Below, piece by piece: positions 1 to 64,000 of a stretch of DNA of 64,000 bases. The DNA is taken from the NCBI GenBank assembly GCA_009192285.1, contig WBVU01000004.1:2192001-2256000 (forward strand), in the 5' to 3' direction. Made by a program: the position numbers and the translations under genes. This DNA is from Morchella semilibera (lineage: Eukaryota > Ascomycota > Pezizomycetes > Pezizales > Morchellaceae). Positions within the stretch are counted from its first letter, which is position 1, and each line of letters starts with the position of its first letter. Below the pieces are notes generated by a model. That model was given only the letters and a program-made list of their open reading frames with translations. It had not been told where the DNA came from and searched no databases.

Positions 1-3000
1 CTGGGAGTGCAGGAATACCGCTATCCACCCTCTCCTGGTCGGGGCTAGGGTTTGAGCCATCGACTGTCCCAAGCGGAGAAGGGAGATCTTCAATCCTATA
101 CCCTCCCATAAGGTCCTCGTTTTCAGCAAAGTCCAGATCTGACTTTTTGGTAGGCTTCAACCCATCTGAAGCACGCCGAACTTTAACCGTGGGTATATCT
201 TTGTTTATTGGTGTGCGATAACTGGCCGACTTGTCCACTGGTGACCCTGCCTCTGGAGTCTTCGGAAAAACCTCGGTCCGTTGTGGGATAGATGTTTCAA
301 GAGTTGTTGGATCTGCTACTTCGTCAACAGATGCATCAGTAGCCCCTTGGTTCCGTGTCCCATGAGACTTTTGCAGTGTTGGCTTTTTTGATGGTGGGGA
401 TAATCTTTTTTTGGCTGGTGAGGACGAGAGTTTTTTTTGTTGGGGAGCCCAACTTTTTATCTGGCGACACTAGCGCCTTTTTTCTGGGAGAAGACGTCGC
501 CTTTTTTGATGGTGCCGGCACTTTTTTGGGTGAAGGAGTCGACTTCTCGCCATTTATTTCAAGAACTGGACTCATTTGTCTTGGAGTCGGTGTGGGTGTT
601 TTCCTAATATATGGGTCAACAATGTCAAGTTCCCTAGGCTCATTATCATTCATATACCACGGTGGATGACCATCGGTCCAACAGCCCAGCACCGTGGTGC
701 CTGCAGCGGGTACTGACATGTTCATATTGATCAATGGAGGTGATACTCCGTTGATACCCTCCGCCCCCGCCTTTGGTTTCTTCTGGGATGAAATAGACTC
801 TTTGACGAATTGCATAGAAGGCTGGCCATTTTCTGTCTCCCTAATTCCGCTTTTTTCGCTCGGTACGTTATCGTAATCGCCTTCAGCATTTTCGTCCTCC
901 TGGGCATCGTCTACTTGGACATCTTCATCCTCTGCTTCACCATTGTTCTTGTTAAAATCCAGATTATCACTGTTCTCGGTGGTGAAATTCCAACTAATTC
1001 CGTTGGTTCCAGTAAGAATGCTTGCAATCTCGGCAATTTCCCTTTCGTTGTCTCTTTTGGTGTCTGAAATTCTCTGCTGCATAATCGTATCCTCTAAAAT
1101 AACTGCATTAGCAGACATAGATATTGAATCAGTCCTTAAATCTATTTCTTTTAACCCAGCTTCATCCAATAGCGTCTCGACTTGCTTCAATATCCTGATT
1201 GCCGCCTCCTGACTTAGGTCATCCATGTCTTTCTTTTGTTGTAGCATCGGGGGGGTATAAGAAGGTATGTTGAACTTGTGCTCGAGTAATGGCTGGCTTG
1301 GCGCGGAGTTTAATACTGAGAGCATATCCATGGCAAAGGTTTCTACAGTTGGATACAGCCGGTTCTCGATTCGGTCCAGGATAAGTGAGAATCCTGGCTC
1401 AAAGACATGTTCGTGATCCAGACTGCACGCGTACCCCATACTATAACGTTAGCTATGCCGCACTGATCTCACATGACGCCCCATCATGCCAGTGCTCTGT
1501 AAAGAAGGACACCAACCTTTCTGCCTTCTCTAAAATTTCCCTCATTAAAGATACCTCGGGGAAATATATAGAGTCCAATGATTGTTCCAAAGCTTTTGCA
1601 TCCCCTACTCTTTCCTTCTCGCCTATATCGACTCTCATAGTCCCATCCTTTAGTTTACCCAAAGCGCCAATCAACCAATCTGCAAATTCCTTGCGTTTCT
1701 CTAGCTTTTTAGTCCCAATTGTGTGTCCCATCGCTGCATAATTCTTTCTTGTAACCTCCACACTTGTGAAGCTGTTCATCTGCAACTGTAGTCGCTTTAA
1801 TAAACTAGCACCACGACGCGCTTCCCGCTTAAGTGTCCAATATTTGCACGCTTCAGCAACATATTCCTCTTTTTTGCAAACCTTGAAGCGAGAAAGAAAG
1901 TCGATAACAGCGGTATAAATGACATGTGGTATCACAGGCGCACCAGAGGGAAGTTTCCACACGGATTTCGGGTTTGCATTGCGCTTACGCTTATTTCCGA
2001 AAGTTAGGTTTAGGCGGGGGAGGTTCCCTCCAACAAGGATGCCATTGGGGGGGCTGCTTTCTTCCGAAGGGTCTGGAAGAGCCATGGCAGCGGATTGGGA
2101 GTCTCCCCAGCTCCGACCAGCCATTGTCTGATGGTAAAACTCCATGGCATCCATGACAGCTTCATCAACCTATAGGATTGTCAGTGACTGATAAATCGAA
2201 AGCTCTGTATATAACTTACATCGTTTTCCCGTCTCCAATCGGCAGGAACATGCTTGTCGCAGTATGCCTTCAACCCAGATGCCTCCAACTGTGCACCTGG
2301 CCCAGAGGTATTCTTCATTTTCATGTGCAGCCGTGCCCGTCGACCACAAGTAACATGGAAGGCTATAAAACAGCTTTTGTTGCTACATTGGATACATGCG
2401 CCCATTTTTTGCTTGCAGATATAGCATGTCTGTCACACCCGAGGTCAGCAAAGAAATGATATTTAAAATATAGTTGTAGGGTTCAACTAAAATCGAAACT
2501 CACCAGCTTCCATCTACTCTTCGGAACTAACTCCATCCCATCCACTGGTTCCATATAGGCTGGGTTCGCCAATCGAACTTCTGGTATCCAAATAGCACAC
2601 AAAAGATGACTCCACCTTGTTGTGGTGGTCTGCTTAAATGCCCCATCGGTATTTGGACAAAAGATACAATGTGCCGTTTGCCTTGGTATTGTAAGACATT
2701 TTCTACACAGCCATTGCCCCTCTGGTATATATGGAACACCATAACACTCTTGATGTACGGCAAGGTTACAACCATCACAGAAAACAATGGCGTTACTATT
2801 CTCGCATTCTCCGTCATCACAGATTGCGCATTTACTATCCTCAGCTCCTTCCTCTTCCTCCTCATCATCGCCGGCTGTCCGACGACGCCTAGCAGAAAAG
2901 GATGTGGAGTGGGGCTTGGCGATGACCTTAGGGATCTTCTTCTCCAACGCCACCCATTCCTTTTCAATTTTTGTCATTGTTATTTCGAAGACTTCACGGG

Positions 3001-4493
3001 TGATAAGAGCGGTTGAGGTAAGGAGACGATATGAATTAATGGATGTGAGCCATTTATCGTCTTGTTCATCCATGTCATATTCCACGCGGTCTAGAGTATG
3101 GATATTGGCGCTGTTGAGTTCCTCATCGATACCAAGGTCGGGGTCGTCACGGAGGAGGGTATTGGGCAACTTGTATAGCGATGTTTGCTGGTAACCCATT
3201 TGCGCTATAGACCGATCTATTGACCCATCTGTTGGCTCAGGGTGGCGGTTGCCTTTGTCAAATTCCGCGAAATAGGAAGTCTGTGGGTTGTTGAGACCGT
3301 AGGGACCACCAGGCCCAACAGAGGAATCCCATGCAAATTCAGAAAATTGAAAAGGGGTTATCTTGCGATAGCTTGGTTTTGGAAGGTTGAGCTTCTCAGC
3401 TTCAAATGACGCCTTCGTCGCTGTTTGGGTCCGCGGTCGTCGGACTGACTGTGGATGGGCAACAGTTTGACGGAGGGGAGGTTTACCGGCATTTGATCGA
3501 TGAGCGCGGAGAGATGCGAGAGTGGGGCCTTCATCACCCCTTCGGGACGCCCTTACAGGGCCAGGTGTGACAGGAGGACGAGTTGTTGGTACTTCCTCCG
3601 TTGGAGTGATTGCAGGTGTTTGTGGTGCTAGCTGATGATCCACTTGTGAGAGAGCCGGGTCGATTGGGATATGTTCTGATGACGGAAGTGAACTAAGAGC
3701 AGCTAGAGCAGGATCTATAGGGAGGTTGATATGATTGTAAAGGTTTAATGGTTTTTCAACGCCTTCCGCAGTGAGGGTTAGGGTAGGCGCATCGGACATA
3801 TCGATATCTATATCATTCAAGGGTGGCGCGGAGACGGTGCCGTTCGAAGGTGAAGAATATGTTGGAAATGAGGATGTAATGATCTCGGGACTTGTATCCA
3901 ATAATTCATCAGAATTTTGGCCATTTCCATCAAGACTCATTCCCATATCCCATCTCCTCGGACCCGTAGTAGATCTGTCCTCCTGTGGCTCAATCTCCTC
4001 CTTCACATCCACAATTTTTACACTCTTCCCACTCTCAGGGGGCTTATAGCTTGCCCCATCGACATCTTCTGCAGACAAACATTCCAATATAGCCTCCACA
4101 TCTAGATCTGGATGGAACTCTGTATAGCTCTTTTCCTCTCTTGGTTTGTAAACCCCATCCGCCACCGTCACGCTCGGAGTTACCGGAACTCTCCGTCTGT
4201 TGTTGGGAGCGGGAGTGTTGGTGGTGTTGTAAACGTTTGCTGGAACGACCGATCCCGTAGAGTGATCAATATACCTTCCACCACCACCAGCACCTCCTGG
4301 CCTGTAACCATTTTGATAAACAGGTCTTCGACGACCCGTTGGAGTATAGCTTTCTGGAACTGATGCTGGGAGAGATGAGGTACGTCTCCTACCACTGAGT
4401 AGACTATTTTGCACGTCCTCTTAGTCGCGGCCGGCCCCTTCCTCGACCACGAGTTGAAGGAGTACGCCCACCAGAACTAGGGGATGGTGCCAT
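1..4493 (-). CDS. nto1: NTO1-like PHD/EPL1 subunit of NuA3-type histone acetyltransferase (3' end off window)
   Basis: Family role: scaffold of the NuA3/MOZ-type H3 acetyltransferase that reads histone tails in the nucleus. I read four exons: 4493-2504, 2429-2220, 2169-1517 and 1422 to beyond the left edge, with GT..AG introns. The first part is disordered and basic. It is followed by an EPL1-like segment (VEYDMDEQDDKWL), a PHD finger beginning CAICDDGEC near nt 2830, and an extended PHD (CIFCP...WSHLLCAIWIPEV) completed across the first intron by CYICKQKMGACIQC and FHVTCGRRA. After intron 3, LDHEHVFEPGFSLILDRIEN resembles a weak bromodomain. The tail is rich in SPxKK repeats. The frame breaks twice. 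Near 4410 the ATG at 4493 (MAPSPSSGGRTPSTRGRGRG) is one base out of frame with the long exon. At the eight-T run 431-438, removing one base joins the SPTKK repeats to the continuing open frame that runs off the edge. Over 1400 residues, as expected for filamentous fungi. Confidence 0.88.
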
Positions 4494-5697: not shown

Positions 5698-6117
5698 TGG
5701 AACACTGGATCAGGTGGCTTCCAGAGGGGATGTTTCGAGAGACTTGCGCTTTACGCGTGAGTAGAGTAGTTGTACATGTACCTACATGTATGCCCTACAT
5801 ACATGTAGCATCTCTGAAGTTTATCAGTAGATGCTGACCCACCACAAAATTAAAAAGCAAAGCCAGTTCTACCTTATCTCTCTTATCAAATAGTTGATAT
5901 CCAATACACCCTTTATTTCGGTGGGGTCATCATTGATATGATGTATGCAATATACTTTAAGTACAGTTAGTTGGTAACTAGCGAATGTTATGGACTCTGC
6001 GTGTAATGTTGATCGAGGTGCGGCCGACCGTTTATGTATGTAGGTACATGCATCTACTACACATGTAACTGTAACGGGGCGGGACCCGATCGGTATTTCT
6101 TTCCAATCTTTTAGTGG

Positions 6118-6292: not shown

Positions 6293-6842
6293 TGGGGACG
6301 TTAGCGGGGATTATTATGACATTGTACATGTATCTAGATAGAGTACATGTCACGCAGCGTGCATACATGTATGTATGAGTGAGTACCATAGGTACCTCTG
6401 GTTTTAGGGTGCTTGGCGCAAATGACGCGATTGCTGACATGGGGTTTTGGGGGTCATGGGGAGTAATCAGCTACATGTAGTTGCTCGTGCTCGAGACGAG
6501 ATCAGCTGAAGGTGAATCCTGTCTAATGGACGCCAAGGGCAAATTAAATTACTGCAAACAAAACCATCAGGCAGGATCCGCCGTTAGTTGCTTGGGCAAG
6601 GAAATTTGGCCCCTGTCTCTGCCATTCTTATGCTGGCAAACGAAGTACCTTATCTTTATCTACATCTATCTAAATACATCTTGCAGCACCCTTTAAAGTT
6701 CAACGCCCAACTCCTTTCCCAAACGTCTATCTTTTTGGTCCAACAAAGCACTCATCAATAATAACAGTTCGCCCTACGAAAATATTTGATTACCTCTGCT
6801 TCCTTAGGCTACGGATACCATTTCAGCTCATCTCCTTGCCAA

Positions 6843-8400: not shown

Positions 8401-8483
8401 TATTAGGTCCCGCTTACTTGTGTGATTGGTTGATAAGGTTACCGGGAAAGGGCTCTGGAGTCTTTTGCGCAAAGGGCCTAATA
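8401..8483. mobile_element. MITE-like element, family A, copy 2 (internally deleted)
   Basis: Begins TATTAGGTCCC and then jumps straight to the core TTACTTGTGTGATTGG, so most of the left arm is missing. The right arm GGAGTCTTTTGCGCAAAGGG and the end CCTAATA are intact. Just upstream, AAGTCATC at about 8360 and GATGACTT at about 8394 form a separate small hairpin. Confidence 0.65.
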
Positions 8484-10123: not shown

Positions 10124-10215
10124 GAGTACATGTAATAAATGGTGGATATATATGTATGTATAAGCTTCGTTTATAAAAGAGAACAAGTTATCTAGCTGAG
10201 AATTCAAGTGGGTAT

Positions 10216-11561: not shown

Positions 11562-13587
11562 TGTCTCCCGAAGTACTGGCTATAGAAAGAGTGTCTGCCT
11601 TGTCTATATACTCTAGATCTAAATGACTAGTGGTTGAGATTAATTAAGCTTTGGGATCTCATATATATATATAACCATGTGCTTTAAGTACCTTAAGCTT
11701 GTATTGTTGCGCAGCTGTCTAGATATCCTACTAACAGCCATTACCACCACGACTATTCTGGGAATTTCACTTCTGATCTACAGCCGTTCCAGGGCAGCTG
11801 GGTGCATAGCTTGCCTTAGCTGTGAGATATGCGAGGTGGTGAGATACATTTATATATATATTTACGTCCGATGCACGGTTTTCACCAGGCGACCCTCTAG
11901 AGAACAGATATGCACTCGGAAGGGTTACCGGGCTCGAGATAATAGGTGGGTCCCATAGTTCGCGGTCGTGCATACCGGCTCTCACCTTTCTACTAGGTAT
12001 GGGTTCCTTAAGTTTTTTAATCACTCGTGCGGTGTACGATTAATATATTCCTTGATAAAGGATATTAGCTTAGCACAAGCTTATAATGTTGCACTAGTCT
12101 GAGCCAAGGATAAAAAAAATTCATATTATGGAGATTGTTGATCCCCACGGCCAATAGGGCGAAATAGAGATCGTGTGTGTCTGAATACCAAGCTTTGTGG
12201 CCACAGCCCTATAGTACTCTAGCTAGGTACTAGGTATATATACAATCTGCCAGAAATCGAATATTTCATGAGTTTAGTTAATTAGCCTTTCTGAAATCTA
12301 GGTCGACCAAACCAAACCAATATAGGCTGTCTCTAAAGTACATACACCGGATTAACACCTGTAAATGGCAAGTCAATACATTAGGAAGGTTGTACGTTAC
12401 TTTAATTGAAGAGCAGATGAGGTATAGCGCCTGATCCTCGGGATGGGATATTGGTGGTTGCTACCACTGAAGATTACAGCTGTTTGCATAATATTAGGCC
12501 CAGCTGAGCGTCATAACAGATGGTGCAAATTTCTAAAAGGGTACATAGGCTACTTAATTTCTCACTAGCTAGGCAATCGGCAATCCTGCCGAAACCCTAA
12601 CTTAAGATACCTGGAGGGGTACCAGCATGAGTCCCCTAATGGGGTAATTTTACTGGGCCTTGTAAGAATCGATCTATGTGTTGTAAACATCGATGGGCCT
12701 AAGATTAGGAAATCGAACAAACCAAGGCCAAGGTTTATGTCGAAAACGTATTACTAAATGTAGTTTAGAAGCTACATGTAGTAATGCTCATTGCTCACAT
12801 TGTGATTAACCTCCGCTGCAAGATAATTTGCCTCAAAGGCGCTTAAACGGATCGAGAATTTTGTATCCGTTCATTACCGGGCACATGAAGTTTAGGGTAT
12901 AAAGACCAAAAAAAAAAAAACACATGTGCCACGTACGTCACACGATTATGTGCAGAAAGAGAGTGATGCTGTTGCTCTGAGCCTCAACTCCCTCGAACCC
13001 TGCAAGGTTTGGTTATATTGCTGCAGAGCTGTACCTAATGTTACTCTGAGTACTGTATGTTATTACATGTAACTTCTTAATCTCTTAAAGGACTTGTATA
13101 AGTGCATGTATTTTACAACTGATTTGTGAGTGTGTTCTTGTGCATACGTTACATATACCATGCATGTATGCAATAAAATGCTAGCTGAGTGTACCTGATC
13201 GACGGACTACCGATGTCGATGCGTTTAATCCCTCGCTTAAAGATATGGGTTGAGAATTACGGCAGGTAGATCGATCTCCAGGCGTTTCAAACCTTTTTTT
13301 GAGCCTCGATTTCGTAATCCCATAATAGCGTTTTTAATATGTACGTCAAATCCTTATTCTAGAGTACGGAGCAAAAATTTGAGTTTAGACATGTATCTCA
13401 AATGCGTATCTAAGTGCATACATGTATATTTGCTGCGTCAAATCTATGCCGCGTACAAACCCGTCTAGAGTACATGTAATTAATTGCATCTACTATGTAC
13501 TGTAAAGTGGTCTTTTGCGCGCGCGCTTGGCATGTTACCCTGCCCGCAGCCAGGTACCATAGCAACCCGGAACAAGTATATTACAGG

Positions 13588-13808
13588 CCTACAGGGCAAT
13601 GGGTTTAACTGGCGGGGATGGGGTTGGGGGGGGAGGAGTGGAGAGGGGGGCGGGGGCCTTCGGCCCCCATAACTAACCGTAGAGATGGGATTGCAGGCAA
13701 TGGGGTTAACTGGCGGGAATGGGGATTGGGGAGGAGCAGAGGAAAGGGGGGGGGGGGGCCGGGGGCAAAGGCCCCCATAACTACATGTACGTACCATAGA
13801 GAGAGGAT
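13588..13808. repeat. G-rich tandem duplication, two units of about 105-115 bp
   Basis: Unit 1 (13588-13692) and unit 2 (13693-13808) share GGCAATGGG, TTAACTGGCGGG, a long G-rich centre (runs up to 13 Gs), GGCCCCCATAACTA and a closing CC(G/A)TAGAGA..GGATT. The G runs on the + strand could form quadruplexes. Confidence 0.7.
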
Positions 13809-14429
13809 TTGTCTACAGCTACTGCTGTTCCCTAGGATTCAAACAACTCGCGGTCGCGAGGTGGTAACCCCTAGTGGTGTAGGTACATGTATACATGTAG
13901 GTGGCGGCGCCGGCGGTTGACATGATCTTAGAGGTTAATTTCCCCTCGCAGAACTGCAAGCAATTCGTTTGGAGACTTCTGCATGTAAATGAAATCTGTA
14001 TATAAAGGAGCCCAGCCCGAGATTTGGTCTCGGTGACCGGACCTAATTAAAATCCGTCCAACCAACCTTGAAAAGGTGTGATTTGAGCAGCTCTGAAGAT
14101 AAATAATTCCTCATGCTCTGTTTACAGAAGTCAAGTTTTCTTCCTATCACAGCTGTCGTGTGTGGTTAACTGGATGGATTTCGATTAGGCCTAACCGCCG
14201 AGAATAAGTAACAGCTTAGCCAATCTGAATCGTATGAGAAGATTTTGGTGGGGTGGTATCGTGCGGGCGTGCGGGCGCGGCTCGACTTGATGATTCTCAG
14301 CGATTGATCCAGAGTAGGTAATGACTTGCGCAGTATGAAACTTGTCTCGGCTAGATGCAAACCGATAATTGTAGTACTAGAAAAAAAATACATTAGTAGA
14401 ACACTGAGATAGCATGCAGATACTAGTAC

Positions 14430-14528: not shown

Positions 14529-17500
14529 GGATCGAAAGTACTAGTAGAGTATTAATACATGCATTTATGGTAGAGTTTCTAGAAGTACATAACCTGCGGC
14601 TCATGATCAGTTCAACACTGACACGTACTGCTGCTACATGCAGAATCTATCGGATCTCTTAATTGATACTGTGGAAATTTTGAACAGAAATACATGTATA
14701 TTTATAGATGCCATTGTACATGCATATACCACAAGTGCTCAACAATAATACGTTGTATAGATCGACGTAATAATACGAAGAATACATGTACTTACTTACA
14801 TGTACTTCATGTATAAATAAACTCTTGTGATCTGGATGTCGAAGTCCTATGTATATAGGAAGCTCTGGTTGACCCAAAGCTTGGCAACTTGTAGTTGAGT
14901 CCTTAGATCGAAGCAAGTTCCTCTAGTATATACTCTGAATCTTTTTTTTTTTTAGATAGAGACCAGATCACGGGAGCATCAATCTCATTCCACGCACGGA
15001 TTTATGTATGTGTAAGTGGTACTCCACATGTTAACTACCGTTGAGGCATACAGCATGAGAAAAGACAGGGATACCAGCCTCTACTCGGCAAGGCGGCTTA
15101 AAAGCGGCTCATCTATGCAACGCTTGAGGCTCTCACATCGTACCTCACCCCACAATCTTAATTTTTGCCAAAATACATCTCACGGGCCTCACCATAGTTG
15201 TTGGTGCGACTCGTGCTAAGGCGAGTTTATATATCCCACATCGCCCTGTCGTGGTCCAGACTTGACAAGTCCATGAGATACTGATCTCCAAATGAGCCGC
15301 TAAATGGCCAGTTACACAAATTTGAACCTTCGTATCATGTCTCAGAGTGCCAGGCCTAGGCTCGTGCCGCACACAATATCTACTATTCAGGATGCTGAGT
15401 GAAACATGCATGTACTCATCAATAATTTCAAGACTCCAAAAAGGGCAGAATGACAGAACTTGAACCATCTGCGCCTATAAACTACAGGACAAGTGCTTAT
15501 ATTTTTAGAGAAACCAAGGTGTAAATGTAGAGGAGGGGTCTCCCCTAAATTTCGGGCACCGGAATAAGGACCCCTTGGATCAAAACTTCGACTTAACGCA
15601 TGGTCTGAATTGGAGAGAGGAGAGTGATCCCATGGGACGCAAATATTTGCCCGGCTCGAAAACCGATCGGGGAGGGTTATGATTCCCTGTATTATAACTT
15701 GGGTATGTTGCACGTCATGCGTAGCAGTTTGACAAGGAATTAATCCTTAGAGGCTCTATGGTGAAGCAGGAAGGGGGAGTTGTGCATGGGGAGAATTCGG
15801 TTCCACTCGAGTCCTTAGGCGCCCTTCCTTTCATCACACCGGTACCCATAAAACAGTTCTTAAAGGGAAATTTCCTATCCTCGAGTGAAAGAAAAATCTA
15901 CGTTCGGCGGGCAGAGGAGGTCATAGATTGCATGGTTTACTACCACTACTACATGCAGTAATAACCCATTAGATTGTTAGGTCGGATGCGAACGTTTGGA
16001 AATCGGTTTTTGTAGGGCGGGGTTTACTTCCTCAGTAGGATGTACCTCGTTTAAAGTTTCACAACTCAACTGTGTTTTGCCGGAGGCCTAGGCTGTGCAG
16101 GATCTCGTGCAAGACATTTTTTTTCCTGCTAATCACCATCCATCAATTAGTATAGTCAAGTACATGAAAGAAATATGGATAAAGGGCCAAATACTATATG
16201 GTAATTAAATTCGTTACTGTGTTTGAATATTAATACTTATCTGACAATTTTGATAATTCTGGAGCCCATAATGACATAGATCTGCTTTCATATGATGCAC
16301 GCGTACATACATGTGCCGATGGTTGAAAGTTCGAGTCTTCACGAAGGAGCTTAATTCATGAAGTGATGAGATGGGGGCCGGTGCTGTAAGATCGACAGTG
16401 GCGATGTTGTTTTTGCGTAGCGACAGGCCAAGCAATTCGGAGCATAAGAGCCCCAAAAGAGCCCCTCTTTTCGCCGCACTAGTGCTGGAAGGCGTGAGGT
16501 AAGGCTTTGGGGGGGTGCACATACGCGGGCTCATGTAACATGATAGAACGCCGAATTAGAGGCTGACATACGTCTCTACAGACCTGAGACGTTGTTTGTA
16601 TTCTCGAGTAGCAATTGCCGAAATCATTAGAGAAATTCGTAAGGCAGAGCACGTTAATATGTAGAAGAAATCAGATCTAAGTAGAGATAGAGCATCATTA
16701 TTATTCTCCCTGAGGCTCAACCTCCATCCAATCCCACTGTTCCCCGAGCTAATCCTCATCTCAACCGCCCCCATCCTTGCTGCATTCTTAACCCTGGTAA
16801 ATGTCTGCTTTTTGAGCCTGCGACATACAGGCTCGTTGCTGCAGCGCGGCTCTTTTCCTAGAGCCGGACCTTCCTTCACGTCCGGTTGTGTCAGATAGGT
16901 ACATGTATTAAGCATGTCCATGTTCATTCTTGTTGAGCAGCCTCAAGCTCGATCCCCCTTGCCCGCCCTGTTCAGCATCACAAAGTAAACGATCCTTGCC
17001 GAAAATTTGAAGCCGCAAACACGCCAGAGCTCCCCCACCTCCACATCAAGGTAGCCGCATTGCTGCAGTGAGAAGAGTTGTGGGTAGGTCTTCGCACAAG
17101 TATCCACTTACGTTGTAGTTCTTTTACATACTTATCACTCACCCTCATCTTCGTTAATTACTGTCTTCTCCATTACTTTACTCTCGGCTCTTAGTACCGT
17201 TTTTTATACGGATATTGTCGACACTTTATAATTTACAGAGCGCCGAACCGAACCCGGAAGTATTGGTCCCGGCCACGGAACCTTACAGCTCCCGCTATTG
17301 CCCATAGTCCATCTACCCATCTACCCCATCAGCAGCCTCATTCCCATCCTCCTATCAAGTTTGAACCAACCATATCTTTCTTATCCATAGTGCAGAGCGA
17401 GGAAATCCAATATTACTCCCACTTGCCTGGCAGTTCCGTTCGTTTTTGGAGCAGCACTCGCTATATGCGGAGCTCGGACCCAGAGGGTTATGCTGGACGT

Positions 17501-39402: not shown

Positions 39403-39956
39403 GGGGTTTGGTATAGAGTATGTAAATACATGCGGGCGTTGTTTCGTCACGCGAGTGTACTTCTACTTACAGCAGCTACAGTAGAAGCACCTCTCTGTTT
39501 CTGTGAGTCAGGAGCTACAATATGTGTAGGTGTGTCCGGGCATAGGGGTCAGTCGGGTCAGTCAGTCAGTGCCTACCTATAGGTACATGTAGATATAGTG
39601 AGTGAGTCGTGCATTTATGATGGTGACTGGTACCCAGGATATGCAGATCTCGAGAAACCCCGTTATTTTTTTATATTTTATGCAGGGGAGGAACGGCGCT
39701 TTGCGCGCATTGGCCTCCCACTCACTCCCGCATAGGGGGATATCGATAAAGGATAAGCTAAATGCGATACAATCAGTCAGTCAGTCGATCAGCCGATCAT
39801 TGACTCACGAATTGCATCATGCCCAGCCCCCAATATATGTATACATAACAGCACATAATATATGTACCGTCCGTCCGTCCGCAACCTCACAACCACCTAA
39901 AAACACAAAACACAAACACAATATTAGCATTGATTGACACAGTTCCCGGATCCCAA
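38474..39956. other. Intergenic region, CSN1 to F-box gene
   Basis: No gene is supported. It has TACATGTA palindromes near 38917, 38929, 39058, 39304, 39339 and 39587, an ATT microsatellite at 39373-39402, and short CAGT repeats near 39560 and 39775. The 80 bp before the next start include GTCCGTCCGTCC. Confidence 0.55.
39373..39402. repeat. (ATT)10 microsatellite
   Basis: About ten perfect ATT triplets in intergenic DNA. Confidence 0.9.
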
Positions 39957-41565: not shown

Positions 41566-42450
41566 AGGGCGGGAGACTGGATAGGAGGTGGCGCCCTGGG
41601 AATGTGGTGCGTCCTGAATTGGCGTAGGTAGATGTAATGTGTGTATTTTCTTTTGTTCGTCTGGGCTCTTCTTTAGAGGCATCTAGATATATTTAGATTT
41701 TTTCCCTAGAGATTGATGAATTTAACCTGAAACACAGAGTCAGCTACGTAGTTAACCGCTCAAAAGGGTTCCACTGTAGGTATCTTTACCTCACCTCTCG
41801 ATACAGGAACCATATGTATCTGCCCCTTCGTCCATTACCGGGAGAGATACTTTTGTACCCGGGGCACATTCCTCAGGCGTGATGTCGATGCCTAATCTAA
41901 TACAGGCCACGAAGAGCACCCTGACCTTGGATTGTCATATCGTGTTGGATACGTGCCTATGAATTGTCGGTCGGCCAATTCTGGATGCGTGCCAAGGATA
42001 TAGTGGCGAGTGATCACCTGTGATCCAATGCCGAAGTTGGAAAGAGGGGAGGGAAACCTTTGTCTCTGTATGTACGTGGGATTAGATATGACGTGGGAGT
42101 ACATGTGTAAAGGTGGAATGGTTATGTAGGTACATGTAGTTGGTGTGGAGTGCGGTGGGTGTGGGTGTGGATGCATGGAGTACGGTGGGGGGTCTCCCTG
42201 AATACAACATGTACCTACATGTACAATGTGCAATGTACGGGTGATTGGGTGTCAGTGTTGCCAGGGGAAAGATCAGGGGCTACATGAAGTCATACAGTTC
42301 AAGGTCCCAGTTGTCCCAATGGCAGCAGGATTGATGATAGGATGGCATACTTAAAGTTCGCTATACACATACGCAGCGAGCCTGCACAAATTACATTGAC
42401 TATGTAAATTCCACACACCAACCTCGTCGCTCTATCTACATACACCCAAT
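41566..42450. other. Intergenic region between convergent F-box and GH51 genes
   Basis: No gene is seen. It should contain both 3' UTRs. Two TACATGTA copies lie near 42132 and 42212. Confidence 0.6.
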
Positions 42451-45187: not shown

Positions 45188-46809
45188 ATTCTGCAACTAC
45201 TTGCCTCGCAGATGATTGACGAGATGCCATCCCACCCAATCCCCAGAGCTCTCTTTTAAACATTCTGCGGGGTGGCTGCGAGGAGAGTGCGGATAAATCG
45301 ATAGGCAGGTACCAAGGCCGTGAAGCTACAATTGGAATCCGGCTGATCATGGCCGCCGGACCAAGGGGCGGAGGGGGACGAACGAGATGGAAGGTGCTAT
45401 GTGGAAAAAACTCTAATATCTATAAACTTAGATGCCTGCTGTGGAGATCCTCTAGCCTGGCCCTGGTACGGTGTGGGGCTTTAGCGCCTCGCCTGTGATG
45501 TGTACCTGCCGGAGTAGAGTCTGTAGATCATTTTGGCAATTAGCCATGGCCTATAAACTGGGTCGCGCTCGCTCTAGTAGGGGCCGATTCGGGGCGAATT
45601 TTTGCGCGTTACGAGGCGGGCGGATGGAGGGAGGGAAGGCGATGAGATGAGATCATTCGAGATGAGGTTGGAGAGGACTGTGGGGTAGGTGCTGTGCCGG
45701 CTTTTATGGATAAAGGACTATATAGTAGGGCTCGAGATGTGTGGAGTATTGTTACTTACAGCTGGTAAATGGTTAGACTGGTCTTGGGATTATTAGGATA
45801 TATGCGGTTCGGGTTGGGATTCGATATACTCTACTCTCTAGGGACATGGGGATTTGGCGGTAATATCCCTCCGGATTGAACGAGGCGATACAAGATGCAG
45901 GTACAATACTTGATATGATAGGCGGCGTCTTAATAAATAGGATACTATATAACACGGCCGTTGCAATATGGGAAAGACCACCTCGAAAAACACCTGGGAA
46001 ATGAACTCAAAATTCTGGGGTTCTCTGAGCTCCATCTCGACATAATCTCTAATGTCTTTTTAGGTGGTCAAAACTTTTGTCTAATGCCGAGTGGTTTAGG
46101 TCGCTAAACATGGATACTTTGGCTGTAAAAGGTGTATTCTACCAAAACATACGTGTAATTTGGTGCTCCGAGTGATACTACATGTAGCCTGATAAAACAA
46201 AATACCACAACATTTACTTACCACCCCCCCCCCCACACTCAATACCCGGTACCTAAGTTACATACATATCGCGGCTAGGAGAGGGTAAAACATCAGACCG
46301 AAGTACATGTACCTACATGTACCTACATACTCTAGACGCTGAGATAGTTACATATACGTGTATAGAGTACATGTAGGTACATATGGTTATATACATGTAT
46401 TTCGTGCCCAGCCTGTGTCACGATTCGCGGTGCACAATTTGAAAACGAGGCTGCATTATCGTACCATGTACCTACATACTTAATGTGTAGCCTAGCAGGT
46501 CTAGGCGGAGACCTTCCATTCATTCGTACCACACCAACACGCGTCGAAATATCCATCCATAGCTAATCCAACCGAGCTTCATGTCTAAGCATGCGTTCTT
46601 ACCCCGCTACATACATGTACTGCTGGAGTCTCTCCTTCTATCTTTCTTCCTCATTCCGTGATCCTAACTAAAAAAACACCCCAAGGCATATTAAACACTT
46701 TGATTATCCAGATCACATGGTTTGTGCGATTAAGATACAACCGAAAGATTTAGAGAAAGCACAACTAATTAATCTTTAATTAAATGCAAAATCTAGGCAA
46801 AGAATAAGA
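45188..46809. other. Intergenic region between divergent GH51 and NLR genes
   Basis: No gene is supported. A cluster of TACATGTA copies spans 46184-46620, six of them within about 46304-46620. Part of it (ACCTACATACTCTA and TAGAGTACATGTAGGT) can pair as a hairpin. Confidence 0.55.
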
Positions 46810-51092: not shown

Positions 51093-53531
51093 ATGAGAAA
51101 GCCCAATATGGTAGCGACGCTCTTGAGGGATGAATAATACTTCTTCACATAAGTCTTTTGTTGCCGGCTTTTTTTATCATTTAACCGGAACAGTGGTAGA
51201 CAAATCCTCTCTCCACGGTACGTGGTTGCGGGGCGCAAAAGGATGTAATCTAGTACATAGTAGATAGAAAATGTATTTGGATCATTGGATATCACTCGAA
51301 CACCCGCCAAAAAAAAAAGGCCCAGTACCATTTATTACCCACAGCCACTCTGAAAAGCGTCAATGTGACATGTCGGCCAAGTCATAACCAGACCAAACCG
51401 TGCACCGAGATGTCCAAAACCTCAAGCCACCGGTGGGGGGGGGGCTGGGGTCAATATTGGGTGTGGTTCTATAAGATGCTGGGCCCTCCTTGCTCGCGTG
51501 AGGTTGTAGTTTTGGAAGGGGAGAAGTGTTGGTCTTGGTCAAAGGGTTGTTATATACAATGGCGGAAAATGGGGTGTGATTAGAGCAGTATTAATCCTGA
51601 AGTGATGCGGCTTTTATGATCATTAAGCTTGCTCATTCACCTCGGTTTAATTCGGTATTCATATGAATGCTATAATTGTAAACAAAGGTTATTTCATGGA
51701 AATACGTTATCCTAAAAGAACGGCATGCTCAAAAAAGCCGTAACATACTGTACTAATACTATTAGCCAACTGGTCACATAATTGAGTTTCTGTGACCGCG
51801 CTAGTACAAGGTCCATGTAGGGACGGGACTAGGCCGGACCTCCCGTCTACTTCTATACTTCCAAGGATACCCCCCTTATTCCCATCCTTCCAGCAGATAG
51901 CACTGGAATCAATACTATCGATGGAGTAATTCTATCTTTAAGTCCATCCCAACATACACATATTCAAGAGAAATCTTCAGAACACCTACTACATGTATTG
52001 GTTTTTGATTATATATCGGAGACTTACTAGTTTTGAGACCCCTACTATAGTTTTGAAATATTTGGTATTTCAAAGGCGTCCCAGTACAGCTTTTTCTGAA
52101 ATCCCGCTTTTTTCCAAAATGACCCTTTTTGAAAAACACCAGCTCTCTACCATATATCCAAAACAGCGCTTCTATTAAGAAGTATTTTTTTGCAAAGTCA
52201 GCTACTTTATTATTATGGTATCACTACAGTATTTTTCACCGCATAATATTTGTACCGCTTGGATCACACCTCGATTTCCCGTATTGTAGTGATTGGGGTG
52301 CCAACGTATATATATGTATGTATGCCGTCTCCCTTGACACCCGATCCTTTGGCTACTGGACTGCCAGACCTGGGGCAGCTATAGATGGGTCCAATTGAAA
52401 CCTCTCGTGATGACTGACTATTCTATTTAGAATATATGAGTTTGAGGAATGGCTCGTGTGGTTGTACCCCACCAAGCGGCGGGGAGAGGAGGGTTTCCAG
52501 TTCCGGGGCGGCGGTGTGTTTAATTTGATTGAGAGATATGGGCGGGTTTGAGGCTAGGGCTTAGGGTGCATGTCTAAGGATGGGCTAAGTCGGCGCTGTC
52601 CATATATATACCCAAACGATACACTCCGGACCTAGCTAGAACATCTATACTACAATTGAGCAGAATATACACTGTCACCTCCCCCACGCACCCAACTGCC
52701 CCGGGGACCCCTCGAGCCCTTGGCGTCTCAATGCAGGTTTCCCCTTCTTGTGTTTGATAAGAGGATCGGGGTGCGAGATACGCCCCTGGGTTCAACTCGT
52801 AGTCGTCTGTTACCACTGCATGGACTACGCACCAGTTCTGTGTTTACGCAGATGCGTGTATCGATAACTGCGTTGACATCCATTCGACGATATATAGGGC
52901 ATCCTGTGTAGACACAAAGAACACTCACGTGTTGGGACATTCCCCTGGCTGGCCTGACATGACGACCCAACGGGGGTGCCTGTACTTATAGCCGGCGGGG
53001 AGGGTGGGGTGACGGTGCTTGAAAGGGCGGTTCTGAGATACGCCAAGGGCATGCTGTGTTCTAGAAGTAGAGGCCGCAAAGCTCAGGATAGGTAGAGTAC
53101 GGGGTTGTATATACACTTCACGGCACCGGCCGGTTAGTCCAGGAGGGTACTTCGATATCTATCTAAACTAACGCCGACATAACCAATAGTCAAGTACCTG
53201 CATCGGCGAGTCAAGTCATGGAGAGAGAGAATAGCCAATTGTCTCGTGCCCAGGTGCTGTTACTTTACATGTGATCAATTATATATATTGCTGCTACATA
53301 GTTAATATACCCGGCTGTATCTCTACCTGGGCTGGATCTATGCATGGAGTGATTTCTCATGTCCACACCACAACGTCTCCCCGGATCCGGAACAACCATC
53401 GATACGTCCCATGTTTTAGGTTATTACCAGTGGATGGATGGATGCAGCAAGAAGGTTAATACCCCCCGCCCCCCCCGCGCCACATGGAATTCTACCGTCA
53501 AATCAATCGCAAACACTCTGTCGCACGCGGT

Positions 53532-56287: not shown

Positions 56288-59200
56288 CTGGGGTAAAATT
56301 TGTTTAACTACATGGTGTTTTTGTTTCGTTTTGGGGTTTTCTTTTTTGGCGTGGTTGTAGATGGATTTATTTTTTACTTTGTAATGCATATGGTGTTGTA
56401 TTGATTAATGAGAAGAATACTCCTCATGAAACGACCGGTGTTGTGTAGATAAAGGCAACATCTAGAATCTAGGGTTCCGAGTCGATATATAGGCCCCATG
56501 CATGAAGTATCAATCGGTTGAATCAAATCAAAACCCAAACCGCGTGACTGACAGACGCTGAGACACGAGTGACAACCCATGACTACGAAGTAGAACACGC
56601 CAAGGTCAAGCCCACCACTACCAGAGAGAAACAGCCAAGCCTAGTTTACTTTTTGGCAGTTCCTGCATGCGTGGCCACTCGAACCTCAGGATTGGGGGAG
56701 CTCCGTGTTATTGGCCGCTGCCACAACAAATAGCTGCAGCTAGCTAGCTAGCTAGTAGGGTAGGGTATGCAGGAAAATTCTCCTGGTTCTACGCTAGAAG
56801 GGTGTACACTAGGGCGGTGCACGTGGCTGGCTGGCGTGCAGCGGTAGAGTAGAACAGAGTTGGGTTGAGGAGAGGCGGGGTGCACGTGGATGCGGACGGG
56901 GGGTGGGGGGTGGGGGGTGGGGGTATATATTGGAGCTGGAAGGCTTGTATCTGCGGGAAGGGAGGGGGGGGGGGTATAGTTGGTTGTTGAAGCTTTGTCT
57001 CCTAGCTTTAGAGACGGAGACGTAGACGTACGTGAGGTTAAGGGGAATGGTTTGGTGGCATGTGTGTGCAATTGATAGCGAGTAGCAATATCTGTATTGG
57101 CGGTTGTTGGTGGATATATGTCGTGGATCTACTTTTTGGGTAGGGAGGTTTTAGTTTGTAGGAGTATAGTAGAAACATCATATAACATTGGCCGAGGTTC
57201 TTAAGGGGAATCGGGCAAGCTTGGATTTATCACGGGGTAATGGATAGCCTTTCTAGATAGTGTGTCTGTTGGTGCCCTCTGTTTTTCATACATGTACCTC
57301 CCCCATGTGTGGTTTTGCTACAGAAGCTATAGCTAGAACATTTTATAGAGCTAGTACATGTAGTAACTACTCGACTCGGGGATTGAAATCGGGCTATGCT
57401 TGTATGTAGATACATGTATACTCCACTTGATATTCTTCAAAAAAGAAATGCCCTATGCATGTTACATAGACAGAGTGCGAATACCGTCAATACTATACTA
57501 TACTAACTTATATACTCGGGACTAGAGGGCTGTGGCGAACAACACCAAGGTGTAAATGACACTTCCGTCATCTTTCAGCTACAGACTTGTGTCGTGTGTC
57601 TTTTGCCAGGCTAGATCTAACACACCAGGGCTGAAGCCCTACTGACTCAAATACCAAGTTACCGCGTAAACTACAGTACCGCTACATACAAGCCACACCG
57701 AGCGTAGCTGAAAGCAGTGCTAGCTAGCTGGCAGTACCGGTACCCGCCGCGCATCGCTCCGGTTGATGGCATGCTCCCAAGTATGTACATACACGGAGCC
57801 GGCTGTAAGGCTGAACATGGCCGTGCAGCTAGTCGGGGACTCCGTAAAGAGTAATGGGAGGTTGTCTTAGATCCTATTTCTCACGCTTAAATTGTCGTGC
57901 GCAATGTGTTACACAAGCCCTCTTGACGGTTCGATTTGGGGGTGCTGGCCGGCATGTGGGGAGCCATGTAACTATGGGTGATCGAGACAACCGGCCGGCG
58001 TTGTCGTCCTAGTTCAGCTTTGGAGGTGTATGCGTGTCTGCTCAATACTCCATGTGATCCGAGTATACTGGTAGGCCTCCCATCGGTCAAAAGGGGGGGG
58101 AGGGGGGTGTTGAGAGGATTTGCGCCGGTTGGGCCAATCCGAGTGATAAATCATGATCAAACTGGGAAAAAACACATACATGTATTTATACGCCATACAC
58201 ACTGATCGCAGAAAGATCGAGATCTTTCCCGCCACAGAAAAGAAAAGAAAAGAAAAAAAATTTGAACAATTTCAGAATCTACCGTGGCACGACTCCATGG
58301 AGCTGGGCCCATTGCGTCAAAGCGAATTTATTGGCAGCATGCGCCAGTGGTTGATCAAAGGGTGTGTGTGTAGGGCTGAGGTTTCAATCTTCTTTAGAAC
58401 TTGGATGTCGCTAATTATATCTTTATTCAGCTTGTAGGTACAGATGGAAAAAAAAAAGCAAAAAGCAAAGGTAACATAACATACCTCCCACCACTGTACC
58501 TACTCTCGGAACATCGGGGTCAGCATTTTATTTTTTTCGAGCGGGGTACGCATCCTATCTTCGAAAAAAAAATATCAACACTCCACTGTGGAGCCGAATG
58601 TACCGCCTACAAAGAGGTGGCTTCCTCTTTTTTTTCTTTTCTTTTCTTTTTCCACACCCCGAATCTAGTTGGCCTCAACAAGGGCGCTTACCACCTGTCA
58701 AAATATGCGTCTAGACATCCTCAATACGACCCATGTATGGGCGTTCCCCACGAGTACGTGGCTTTGGTTGTGACCAAATTTGATCTAGTCCAGATTGACA
58801 TTCCTCGAAGTGGACTGTGCAACTGCTGGGATGGGCACCCAACATGGTGGTTACTTTACCAGTTCGGTTATTTGGGATGCGCCAGAAATCGAATGAAAGG
58901 TAACGGCAAAATATGTCTCAGGCTGTTTGGCTCAATGCGGCCAGCACATGCTCCAACGTTTCAAGTCCGGGCCCCACTTAGTAGAGATCGCCCATCACCA
59001 TTCGACCCAACGTCCTGTAAAGCTGCATGTTCTAGTTGAGAAAAAACGAAAAAACGGAAAGAAAAAAAAAACATCACTGTCGATCCTACATAACACACTT
59101 ATGTCTATAACATTGATCAATTGAAAGCTTATTTTATGGGTCTGACCGTGACTTGAGGGGTGAGTGTGTAAAGCCAATCAATGTATATATATATATATGG

Positions 59201-62200
59201 GAGATCTATAGCGGCGTTTTCCCATGAAAGAGCTCCTCCGGGGCTAACAACGGCCCTCTAGGCCTTCTCCATACGCTCAGATGATATTCTAGTAACATTA
59301 GATACACCCCCGATCGTCTCGCACCACTCGAGGACGGCTCTTGTGTGATATATATCTAAAGGACAGGTGCCTAGATAGTTTCTATCAACATTGAGGGTAT
59401 CCTTCTGGATTACGAGGTTGGTGGCTTTCGTTCAACAGTTACAAAACCGCCAATTGTGATCAATCCATGGGATAAGAAGTATGTGAGTTCATGTCTACTC
59501 CTGCCGAGGCTCTATATGTGCACAGTTAACCGTCAGTCTAACCAAGATCTTAAGAAAAACCTTCTTTTCACAATGATTACCCCCATACATGGTCTCGTGA
59601 TCCGGAAACGTTTCAGAATAGCGAGTAGCCTAATCTGGGGCTTTTTCGGCGATTAGGCAGTGGTATGTAGACCCATGATTCATAGTTTCAAAAGCTACTC
59701 TCAAGAGAGAATCCGGACCCGTAGATTGAGCTCTGCTAGAAACAACTCACGGATTAAGGCAGAAGGGGTCACGATAGATGGTATCAATCTTCTGGCCATA
59801 AACAGACTAGACTCTGATCGCTAATGGCTTAAACACCTGATGATAGAGTTGTAGGCCAGACCGGGTGTTCTCTGCCGTGTAGAAATCCTGGCCATGGGGT
59901 TACGTATACGTAATTGTGGACGATTAGACATTGAAACTAGCACTGATAGGCGGTAAATAATAGAGCGTTTTGCCTATCTTTGGGCTTGTTAGTTAAAAAC
60001 GTATGTAAGGACATATTTACAATTAGGAGAACTTAGCTTAAGAAGTGGCGATGTTCGATTCGCAGAATATTCCATCATCAATTACCTGTAGCGCAAGGCG
60101 GACTTGGATGCAAGAAAGTTTTTAGGAGCTGGATAGACCGGGGTAACATGTATATGTATACGCCTAGAGCCAGATCCGTTTTTGAACCGCTACATACATG
60201 CATATCGAGCTAGGAAATAACCCCAATTACTAACTTCTAACATCTCTCAACCGTTATTTTGTGGCTTGAAAAAATGCCCACTTCCAGCCAGCCACAAGCC
60301 AGGGATGGCGCATACCACAAGTCGTGTATGTAGTCAGATAACACTAAACCTGGCCCTTTATCACTGCTCGAGTTTTTTTCTATGGACGTTTAGCACTTAA
60401 TTGGTTAGGTGGAAGGGCTGGAGCTGAGGTTAACTACTCGTTGTGGGCCCGCATAAGCTGAGATATATGCTAAATTGGAATTGAGGGGTCTTGTTAGAGC
60501 CCTCTTATTGTACACTCCAAAGTGGGTACACCTTGTGTGCACATCACACAGCCTGGCTCAATACCCGGCTCTGGCAGTCTGTGTCAATGATCCAACACTG
60601 GGGCAGCTATCCCCGCCGAACCAGTCCTCGGCTAGCTACATGTAAGAGATTTTCGGCCTTCTACTCGTTGTGGGCACAGATCAGTCAATCGTGTCGTGTA
60701 TGCTTGCACAAGAGTCCATGCGCTTCCATTTTCAGCAAAGCTGAATAAAATCATGGCTATCTCCGGCTTACTAGTGTCCTCTCCATTGATTGGTCAAAAA
60801 GTGTTATGGATCTGCGCATAAAATCTCCTTTCGGAGTAGATTTGATATAGCGCTGGCTAGTTAACTAACCTTTCGAGTTTTGCGACCTACTTTATCAGCA
60901 TTACCTGGATCCACGGGGCCCTCGCTCGTATGATATGTGCAGATCCTGTGATTCATGATCGTAGAAGCTTGTTGGTGCTGAGAAAATTGGTGGTTAGCGT
61001 GATCTTATAGGAGGGTGTATACGTACCTGTTTTGGGGGGGTCTTGTAAGATCTGGACGTATGATATTGAGGATATCGATACAATCAGAAAGTTCATATTT
61101 ATATTGGGGTTATAGGTTAGGAAGTTATTTGAGATTGGAAACGGAAATTGAGTGATATTGGGGTCCAGTTAGAGCATGCGCATCAACGACATCTGCTTAG
61201 GTATTCCTGTCATCATCACGATCTGTACCTGGATTTTAATGTTTGCATACGCCATTAAACAATACCTCCATATGCGGCCTCCCTGTAGCATCTCTCAATT
61301 ATTTCTATGCAAACTAGGGCCTTAGTTTTAACGTTATATGTCTATGAGCGAACAGGATCCCAAGAATGTAAACCCTAAAAGGAGTTGAATTAAAGCTTAA
61401 ACTGTGTCCTATCCTTCCGACGTAAGTGTCTTAGAATTAAAGTAGTAAGGCCAAGAGCTTTTTTGAAACCCCTCATGCCTTGGGATTTCCACATAACCAC
61501 CCCTCTGTATCTGATCCGATATTGATCCCATATGCTTCACCGTTTTGATTTAATCTACTAGCACGTATGCTACGGTAGGTTTGTTTGGATACCTAGATAG
61601 GACTGCTTAAAATATTGACCAGTATAATTATATTCGAGCGCTCAGCACACGGTGATAAATTCTTGGGCCAGTCATTGTGAAAGACGGCCCCTGAGAGTCT
61701 CGAGGTTTTAAACACATGTTATTTGGGAGCTTCGTGTTTTGTTCCGATGTCAAACAGTTTTGGCTAGTTTGACTGTACTAGTATGAAACCCTACCAAGAG
61801 TTCTAGGAGATAAAAGACTCCGCCTTCGATGATTCAAGCTTTTTGAGAAGCATAGAAGTATCGTGTTAGCGTGAACGTGGGAGAAGTTCCGGCTGAGAAA
61901 GGGAGGACATCACCTATCATCATACCGATAACTACATGTAAGCGTAATCATTGTACATAAAACGGCTCTTGGCTCCTACCGCTGCTTGGGATGTGGAGGC
62001 TGAGGGAGGATGCGGAGCTATCGAGAGGACCGTATTGGGTTCATAGTGTAGGGGCAATGACCACGCTATTCAATGGTACTGATATTTACCTCAATGGAAT
62101 ATCTGCAGAGTTAGTGGTGTTTTGACTGGTGGAAGATGGTTATCTGCAATTAGGATATAGAGATACATTTCTGAAATTGTAGTTCTGAATGGAGGTGCAG

Positions 62201-63357
62201 ACGGTAGAATCCGTCTTCGGCCCATACCATCATGCATGGCTCCTTGGCATATGCATGCAGATTACCAGCCCGCATATGTACGAATGTATAAAAACGAATA
62301 TGGTCGATTTTTGTACGCCTAATGAGTTGTAGAACCATGCAACTGATCTTTCCTTTCTAGGCTTCGGAAACTTGTCACAGATCGAATACTCCTAGAAAGA
62401 GTTTATTCTCAAGTAGCTGGCATCTTGTCAAATGACGCAGATTCAGACGTAGAGGTGTGCACTAGGAATGAAATGAGATGGCGGATCATCTTAGTCGTTA
62501 TTCTCAAGATTCAATTTCATGAAGTTTATGAAGAGAGCAGCCTTAGCTTGTGTTCGGGGGCTTGGGTTTTCTAGTCTAGCCGTATCCAACGGAAGTACTG
62601 TGTTCAAACACGTGTATGTGTGGTTGCTTAATTCCATTGGGGTGATATTCGTGTGTATTATGGTCATTGTACTAGACTACGCGGGGGACTTGACATATGT
62701 CTTCGTGGAGAATGTTTAAGGTCCCATTGGCCAGAGATATACTTGTTTACATTATATCTAGGTCAGAAGTAAAAAGGAAACTGCAGTACTACTGACGAAA
62801 AAAAGACATCGTTTTCTCTTTACCACTCTTGAATCTTACAAAGCACATCGTTTTCCCAAACCATGGTATTCCTATGTGGTGTTGGTTTACACGAGCTACA
62901 TGTAGTTCAAAGATATATACAGTTACGTACGGACTCCTATATCATATGCGCAGAGAGCTTTCATTAAAAGATTATATACCTACACACATACAAATTAACC
63001 ACGGACTCTAGGTAGACACTGACCTAAAGATTTCAGATACTGTACATGTTGGTGCGCAGGGTCCAACAGCTCGTTGCGTACCAATAGAGAATATTATCGC
63101 CACCCGCCGGCCACATCCATCTCTTTACAGGCCTGTGGTTACACCATGTCACCACCAAAGCCATTCATGTGTTTCTTTTCTTATTTTCTAGGTAGGTAGA
63201 AATGATTCCGTCGGTTTGGTGTGCAGCTAGCCTCTAGCACAGCACTCGATGAGCCGCAGTACATTCGTACGTACTGTCACTCGTTGAACGTACTATTAAA
63301 TACCCACCTCCTTACATACGATGACATTCGCTCGCCGAGCTATCTCAACTATATATT
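56288..63357. other. About 7 kb gene-poor region
   Basis: No gene is supported. A 212-codon open frame at 58401-59039 has no domain and crosses A- and T-homopolymer runs. Seen here: a block at 56625-56648 shared with 9356-9379, GGTGGGG repeats near 56900-56925, AGCT repeats near 56738-56755, and TACATGTA near 57290, 57354, 57411, 58176, 60637, 61931 and 62898. A 15-base direct repeat (CTACTCGTTGTGGGC) sits near 60433 and 60660. Confidence 0.55.
56625..56648. repeat. Block shared with the inverted-repeat element at 9.3 kb
   Basis: 24 bases starting AGAGAAACAGCCAAGCC are identical to 9356-9379, and TTATTGGCCG follows in both (near 56708 and 9385). The terminal arms of the 9.3 kb element are not seen here, so this is probably a decayed or different-length relative. 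Confidence 0.65.
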
Positions 63358-64000
63358 ATGTCTCGTCGGCTCTCACAGTATCAATTCATTGCTCACATGG
63401 CCTACAACACAAACCTACGCCAAAACGAAGGTTCCCCTTCCCCCTCCACCGACTCAGGGGATGATGACCGTAGCAGTATGACGACGTTATCCTCTTCTTT
63501 CGGGGGGTACTCGCCGTACGAGAACACAAGTCGTCAGATATCTCCGGCAAGCGATACGCCCTTCAGTGCTTTTGGTTGCTCGTTTCCTTTTGGTGATTAT
63601 AGCCAAACCGGGCTGGGGGGAATTGGTGGTCAAATCAATTACATACAGAATGTTTATCCGCATGATGGATCTATCGATTACGAACTTTTGATTCCCCGGA
63701 GTACGCGTCTTTCCAGTCAAGAGATATCGTCCCCAGAACTCTTTAAGTATGCCCTCAATGAAATATCTATCGTCCTACTACTATACACCCAGAATCTAAC
63801 ACACTCCTAGCCCATGGCTGCCGGTACCTGGGGTAGAATGTTATTTACCGCAAACAGAGGCCCCCTCCCCCTCTTCCTCCGGTCCTGAATGCACAAACTC
63901 TCAACCAACCGGCCCAAGTAACTCTAAGAAATGCGATGAAGACGAATGTGAAAAGGAACATAGGAAGTAAGTAATGCTTGGAATTAAACTACGATTTCGG
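63358..64000 (+). CDS. Unrecognised protein, N-terminal part (runs off window)
   Basis: Exons 63358-63746 and 63811-63966, then a GTAAGT donor; the rest lies beyond the right edge. Intron 1 (GTATGC..CTCCTAG) keeps the frame, joining SPELF to NPWLPVPGVECYLPQTEAPS. The sequence is Ser/Gly/Tyr-rich and disordered (SFGGYSPYENTSRQISPASD), ending SNSKKCDEDECEKEHR, a charged Cys-containing stretch that might begin a zinc-binding or nuclear domain. No family is recognised. The proper splice sites and reading frame across the intron support a real gene. ATG 63397 is an alternative start. Confidence 0.6.

Follow-up and report, generated by a model that had tools for sequence, protein, structure and literature searches.

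The 64,000-nt stretch of the Morchella semilibera genome considered here (contig WBVU01000004.1, positions 2,192,001 to 2,256,000), hereafter called the window, is marked by a palindromic octamer, TACATGTA, which occurs in it exactly 48 times and is its top-ranked 8-mer by word count (Table 1). Among the predicted genes of the window are a COP9 signalosome subunit 1-like gene at 37074-38440, with the Pfam domains RPN7 and PCI and with CSN1 as its best solved-structure match, and a STAND-type gene at 48130-50240, in which an AAA/NB-ARC-like NTPase is combined with tetratricopeptide repeats. About 15 kb, from 4420 to 19345, are without long predicted coding segments and carry 18 of the 48 copies; this stretch may contain non-coding transcripts, or genes that are small or rich in introns. 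A scan of the window against Rfam returned zero structured-RNA matches at the gathering score.

The abundance of the octamer extends to the whole genome. In the assembly searched (56.8 Mb in 23 contigs, 56,756,124 bases) TACATGTA was counted 22,206 times, against 3,723 occurrences of the reversed-letter control word ATGTACAT and about 870 copies expected at even base composition. Since some contigs are near-duplicates, this count includes repeated sequence: the one 10-kb stretch compared in each pair is 99.99% identical between C9 and C10 and 99.88% identical between C12 and C13, values too high for a comparison of haplotypes, and C21/C22 also look near-identical, judging from parallel transposase matches alone. 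A Pfam match named 'Fungal AAA protein' and the appearance of the KN homeodomain described below point to a fungal genome; a chlorophyll a/b-binding protein, sought because algae are among the relatives of oomycetes, had no match. The mean density of the genome is 391 copies per Mb and that of the window is 750 per Mb, so that the window is a TACATGTA-rich region.

Local counts were made on a sample of 292 kb, consisting of the window and 26 further stretches from 13 contigs, from which the near-duplicates L008 and L010 and the loci fetched by match (L001-L006) were left out. The sample was divided into 111,334 bp of coding and 180,666 bp of non-coding DNA, the coding segments being our own predictions by a self-trained hexamer score and not an annotation. 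The non-coding part contains 108 copies where a Markov model of order 3 predicts about 7, an excess of about 15-fold; the expectations for orders 0 to 5, taken as half of the both-strand figures, are about 4, 3.5, 5, 7, 20 and 54, and for the 48 copies observed in the window a model of order 6 gives an expectation of 40.5. High orders expect many copies because they already contain most of the word. Among the 256 palindromic octamers in the non-coding sample TACATGTA ranks first, followed by TATATATA with 61 occurrences, the median being 3. Masking of microsatellites leaves 104 of the 108 copies, so that the word is not a simple microsatellite, which would lie in tandem runs. RIP-type mutation was rejected as well, TpA/ApT being less than 1 in each of the 27 sequences of the sample. 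The copies are clustered, with a variance-to-mean ratio of 2.2 over 167 non-coding 1-kb bins. The strong over-representation is therefore real and robust, and what the initial annotation had noticed by eye, namely about 48 copies, far more than expected, their clusters and the unlikeness to a simple microsatellite, is borne out, and the excess is genome-wide.

The site is sharply defined. Its 24 single-base variants occur 156 times in total against 118 expected (1.3-fold, individual variants ranging from 0.6- to 2.3-fold), compared with the 15-fold excess of the perfect word. Outside the eight core bases, the flanks, 218 in number, have T as the base at +3 in 139 cases and A as the base at +4 in 112, whereas A is rare at +1 (20/218); the dinucleotide TA occupies +3/+4 in 90 of them, against 410 of 2,538 after TGTA in general. 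The extended symmetric consensus is thus the 16-bp TANNTACATGTANNTA, with TA on both sides in 3,317 of the 22,206 copies genome-wide and in 251 of the 3,723 copies of the control. The two flanks of a copy are independent of each other, inverted left/right matches being observed in 10 of 100 cases with 10.2 expected. Arm complementarity within copies, compared with that between copies, is 0.35 versus 0.28 at +1 (p 0.07) and is not above chance at the remaining nine positions in the 109 sampled copies. As the arms vary independently copy by copy, the symmetry belongs to the consensus and not to stems, and neither the pairing as hairpins suggested in the initial annotation nor a mobile hairpin, which would require complementary arms beyond the core in each copy, is supported. 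The suggestion that many copies extend to GGTACATGTACC does not hold: this 12-mer, enriched genome-wide (91 against 2), is a small minority and accounts for just 2 of the 48 window copies. Neighboring copies show a preferred distance. A pattern for pairs with at most 30 bases between the copies, which detects spacings of 8 to 38 only, gave 2,666 matches versus 129 for the control, with a peak at 10 bp (19 of the first 100 matches listed, the next commonest spacing being found in 7). Two further observations on related words are that TACATATGTA is also over-represented in the non-coding sample (7 vs 0.4 expected) and that TA dinucleotides 4 bp apart show a 1.3-fold excess after microsatellite masking.

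The excess is confined to non-coding DNA. None of the 48 window copies falls in the predicted coding segments (23.1 kb at a score of at least 20), where chance predicts about 0.1, and the whole coding sample of 111 kb contains one copy, against a mean of 0.36 from shuffles of synonymous codons. Exons therefore lack the excess, as the initial annotation had seen for the window; the avoidance of exons that it proposed was too strong a term and is not shown by these figures. Intron-like gaps (2.9 kb) contain 2 copies. The intergenic distribution was analyzed on 76 gaps between 110 predicted gene blocks, with crude gene predictions; these gaps account for 80 of the 109 copies in the sample. Divergent gaps contain 42 copies in 44.9 kb (0.94 per kb), tandem gaps 20 in 37.7 kb (0.53 per kb) and convergent gaps 18 in 31.9 kb (0.56 per kb); when the window is left out the densities are 0.67, 0.20 and 0.52 per kb, respectively. 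Within 300 bp of genes, 8 copies lie downstream (21.2 kb) and 6 upstream (19.2 kb). Retrotransposon domains, recognized by running just 20 of the long reading frames in the sample against Pfam, mark six loci (L009, L014, L015, L019, L020 and L025), which contain 2 copies in 29.0 kb of non-coding DNA, compared with 59 in 110.5 kb for the other 20 sampled loci. Three of the latter (L016, L023 and L034, with 8.9, 3.6 and 4.2 kb of non-coding DNA) are also empty, though repeat-poor, so that retrotransposon loci tend to be poor in the word without this being a rule. Overall, TACATGTA lies mainly in unique intergenic DNA, more so away from genes, and is without a clear promoter bias.

Table 1. Copies of TACATGTA in the window, from an exact word count; the strand is given as a point.
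Feature	Position	Strand	Remark
TACATGTA copy	5773..5780	.	10-bp pair with copy at 5783
TACATGTA copy	5783..5790	.	
TACATGTA copy	5800..5807	.	
TACATGTA copy	6325..6332	.	
TACATGTA copy	6364..6371	.	ATACATGTAT form
TACATGTA copy	6472..6479	.	CTACATGTAG form
TACATGTA copy	10127..10134	.	
TACATGTA copy	12773..12780	.	
TACATGTA copy	13064..13071	.	
TACATGTA copy	13419..13426	.	
TACATGTA copy	13471..13478	.	
TACATGTA copy	13782..13789	.	
TACATGTA copy	13884..13891	.	directly adjoins copy at 13892
TACATGTA copy	13892..13899	.	directly adjoins copy at 13884
TACATGTA copy	14691..14698	.	
TACATGTA copy	14783..14790	.	
TACATGTA copy	14797..14804	.	
TACATGTA copy	16900..16907	.	
TACATGTA copy	22915..22922	.	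10-bp pair with copy at 22925
TACATGTA copy	22925..22932	.	within GGTACATGTACC
TACATGTA copy	28671..28678	.	
TACATGTA copy	28715..28722	.	within GGTACATGTACC
TACATGTA copy	28729..28736	.	
TACATGTA copy	28961..28968	.	
TACATGTA copy	29270..29277	.	
TACATGTA copy	36217..36224	.	upstream of CSN1-like gene (gene prediction)
TACATGTA copy	38915..38922	.	
TACATGTA copy	38928..38935	.	
TACATGTA copy	39059..39066	.	
TACATGTA copy	39304..39311	.	
TACATGTA copy	39338..39345	.	
TACATGTA copy	39584..39591	.	
TACATGTA copy	42131..42138	.	gap between two convergent predicted genes
TACATGTA copy	42216..42223	.	same convergent gap as copy at 42131
TACATGTA copy	46179..46186	.	
TACATGTA copy	46304..46311	.	opens 10-bp tandem array TACATGTACC x2.5
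TACATGTA copy	46314..46321	.	within TACATGTACC array begun at 46304
TACATGTA copy	46368..46375	.	
TACATGTA copy	46392..46399	.	
TACATGTA copy	46612..46619	.	
TACATGTA copy	51990..51997	.	
TACATGTA copy	57289..57296	.	
TACATGTA copy	57355..57362	.	
TACATGTA copy	57411..57418	.	
TACATGTA copy	58177..58184	.	
TACATGTA copy	60637..60644	.	
TACATGTA copy	61933..61940	.	
TACATGTA copy	62897..62904	.	

Highly iterated palindromes are known from prokaryotes, and the resemblance to them had been pointed out on first inspection of the window. HIP1, GCGATCGC, is found in cyanobacteria together with matching methyltransferases and lies within bacterial genes too. The likeness is sound in abundance and sharpness, as in both cases one palindromic octamer occurs far above expectation genome-wide, and it fails in placement, since in this eukaryote the excess is present in non-coding DNA only. 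A closer precedent is that TACATGTA itself is already published, in the accounts available, as a promoter motif abundant in Phytophthora, termed motif-1 or M93, which is present in the upstream regions of 12,070 genes from three species (4,150 occurrences in P. infestans promoters), passes a filter for conservation between species, correlates with expression and is read there as a homodimer binding site (PMC3520976; PMC3597505). The octamer is identical and very abundant in both, here in non-coding DNA; however, motif-1 belongs to oomycete promoters and is tied to expression, whereas in this fungus the word occurs genome-wide with no significant promoter preference, and the outer TA steps do not figure in the available descriptions of motif-1 / M93. 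KN homeodomains are named there as candidates, an Irx-type TALE homeodomain is reported to prefer TACATGTA, and in the same available text a Tc1 origin is set aside, taCATGta being described as a rare Tc1 footprint (PMC3520976). The BEN domain of NACC1 has been crystallized on a CATG palindrome containing TACATGTA. Among fungal chromatin factors, MoIsw2 of Magnaporthe oryzae has palindromic ChIP motifs that are mostly intergenic, according to the part of the report available; the likeness is one of description, and TACATG is absent from the text available (PMC11481914). A search of the literature found no fungal report of a TACATGTA motif, which is not proof of absence.

We consider that TACATGTA is a putative binding site of a DNA-binding protein, probably dimeric, a reading to which we give about an even chance and which is the best fit among the causes offered by the initial annotation. 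As expected of a transcription-factor site, the word is over-represented in non-coding DNA and has an information-rich symmetric consensus; a promoter preference, also expected of such sites, was not found. We infer protein binding, a dimeric state, maintenance by selection and a role as follows. The octamer would be the core of the palindromic 16-bp site TANNTACATGTANNTA, recognized in intergenic DNA by an abundant sequence-specific protein, probably a symmetric dimer, and its eight bases would be kept by selection for binding. The outer TA steps (positions 1/11 and 5/15, separated by one turn of the helix) could strengthen the contact and could let adjacent sites stack at 10-bp spacing. Because no significant promoter preference was found and the density is higher away from gene edges, the role would be architectural or related to chromatin (nucleosome exclusion, a boundary or long-range regulation) rather than that of a classical promoter-proximal activator. 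A protein-binding palindrome explains the sharpness, the symmetry, the independent arms, the spacing and the precedent in Phytophthora.

Several observations weigh against this proposal. The ratio of divergent to convergent gap densities, 1.66, is not significant by permutation (p 0.17), and the DNA up to 500 bp from gene edges carries 23 copies in 57.5 kb, compared with 57 in 57.0 kb farther away. The excess of single-base variants is almost wholly due to transitions (77 vs 42 expected, transversions being 79 vs 75), a pattern that the decay of unprotected sites would give. Arms extending by at least four bases were found in 5 of 109 copies, with about 2.4 expected, and flank dinucleotides are directly repeated in 16 of 100 cases against 8.2 expected (p 0.006), hinting at slippage with a 10-bp unit. 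Furthermore, 22,206 copies are many for a single factor, and an exon-by-exon search of the genome gave a single Homeobox_KN match, which reads WFINARRR and is presumably not of the Irx type, the type reported to prefer this octamer.

The word can also be written as TA, the CA/TG ends of an element, and TA, and could then consist of Tc1/mariner-type excision scars: a CA...TG element lying in a duplicated TA, cut two bases inside its 5' ends and with both overhangs kept, would leave TA-CA-TG-TA, and the TANN..NNTA flanks would reflect a target preference. We disfavor this origin, a live but weaker rival of the binding site that we regard as unlikely. The genome does harbor such elements, with at least 69 DDE_3 and at least 96 DDE_1 matches, fragments and duplicated contigs included, and elements with clear terminal repeats include L035 60-1743, L036 51-1734, L038 206-1629, L039 75-1399, L040 369-1685, L041 99-1768 and L042 131-1472. 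Seven of the eight DDE_3 elements read have TA[CA...TG]TA ends, so that the core of the octamer equals TA plus element ends; two (L036 and L038) show the TANN-TA-NNTA target form, L042 is inserted in the TA of a TACATGTA and L041 in the TA of a TACATGTG. Two short elements with TACAG ends, L025 1276-1390 (115 bp) and L032 4220-4366 (147 bp), are probably non-autonomous mariner relatives. The flanks of these two and of seven DDE_3 elements, 18 in all after dropping L037 (ends not starting with CA) and L043 (DDE_1, no terminal repeats found), show a target preference ANG-TA-CNT. They resemble those of the motif at +3, where 14 of 18 have T, and at +3/+4, where 7 carry TA, and differ at +1, where C is present in 16 of 18 element flanks against 59 of 218 motif flanks (Fisher p 3e-7). 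The elements, however, belong to a small number of families (L035/L036 are 98% and L039/L040 88% identical), so that their flanks are not wholly independent of one another. A transposon-related product thus agrees with the resident elements in the core and at +3/+4 but not at +1. A scar would be independent of lineage and could therefore explain the identical octamer of Phytophthora, and the prevalence of transitions among the over-represented variants also favors it. The typical Tc1 scar of Caenorhabditis elegans is, however, +4 (78%) in the available part of the report (PMC13148408); we read it as TACATA/TATGTA, unlike the +6 TACATGTA, and these words are only weakly in excess here after masking (217 vs 149, 1.45-fold), as are the three-base scars TACAGTA/TACTGTA (39 vs 31). 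The related element ISY100 is described, in the part available, with a TATATA junction (PMC2170065). The 22,206 copies also far outnumber the 165 transposase matches, non-autonomous copies being uncounted, and their scarcity in the retrotransposon-domain loci is a further point against scars. The contents of TAGGTA-to-TACCTA intervals number 263 genome-wide against 60 for the control and are exactly TAGGTACATGTACCTA in 2 of the 50 places listed; in 173 paralogue alignments searched for empty sites, TACATGTA occurs in just a self-palindromic stretch of L031 and the L035/L036 element pair, neither of them an informative case. Scars explain in part, namely the core letters and some of the flanks, and leave out +1, the weakness of +4 scars and the numbers; the resident elements may instead use TACATGTA as a landing place.

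A functionless by-product of replication slippage and of alternating pyrimidine-purine microsatellites (TACA, TGTA, TATA and TANN repeats), which we rank after the scars among the improbable origins, is suggested by the roughly 5-fold excess of TACATACA and TATATATA, by alternating pyrimidine-purine octamers as a class (2,562 vs 1,429 expected), by the over-represented TA-TA distances of 4 and 6, and by the directly repeated flanks together with the 10-bp tandem array. Slippage, on the other hand, yields direct repeats and not one specific palindrome, nearly all copies outlast masking, the perfect word stands far above its variants, and CACATGTG is without excess (TGCATGCA 8 vs 3.4); it explains the 10-bp repeats, and not the single dominant word. 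Two further possibilities seem to us highly improbable, and to a similar degree. An RNA signal, in which UGUA on both strands would serve the flanking genes as a 3'-end processing or Pumilio-type element, agrees with the presence of TGTA on both strands of the palindrome and with the copies in convergent gaps, but it would need no full palindrome, and enrichment just downstream of genes is lacking. Recognition by a DNA-modifying enzyme or a nuclease, a role considered for cyanobacterial HIP1, would suit a palindromic, sharp and highly iterated word, but coding DNA is not enriched.

Taken as a whole, the interpretation given in the initial annotation is partly supported. A bolder form of the protein-binding proposal, which we advance tentatively and consider rather doubtful, is that TACATGTA is a eukaryotic equivalent of the highly iterated palindromes: some 20,000 sites, with TANNTACATGTANNTA as the best form, would make up a grid in fungal intergenic DNA, through which one abundant architectural protein would organize intergenic chromatin and steer the landing of TA-targeting transposons. 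If the octamer is bound by protein, it would point to a factor of general regulation or architecture whose sites lie 2.6 kb apart on average; if it consists of transposon scars, thousands of past excisions would be recorded in this genome and the Phytophthora motif would need to be read anew. Under either reading, that one octamer is prominent in both a fungus and an oomycete calls for an explanation.

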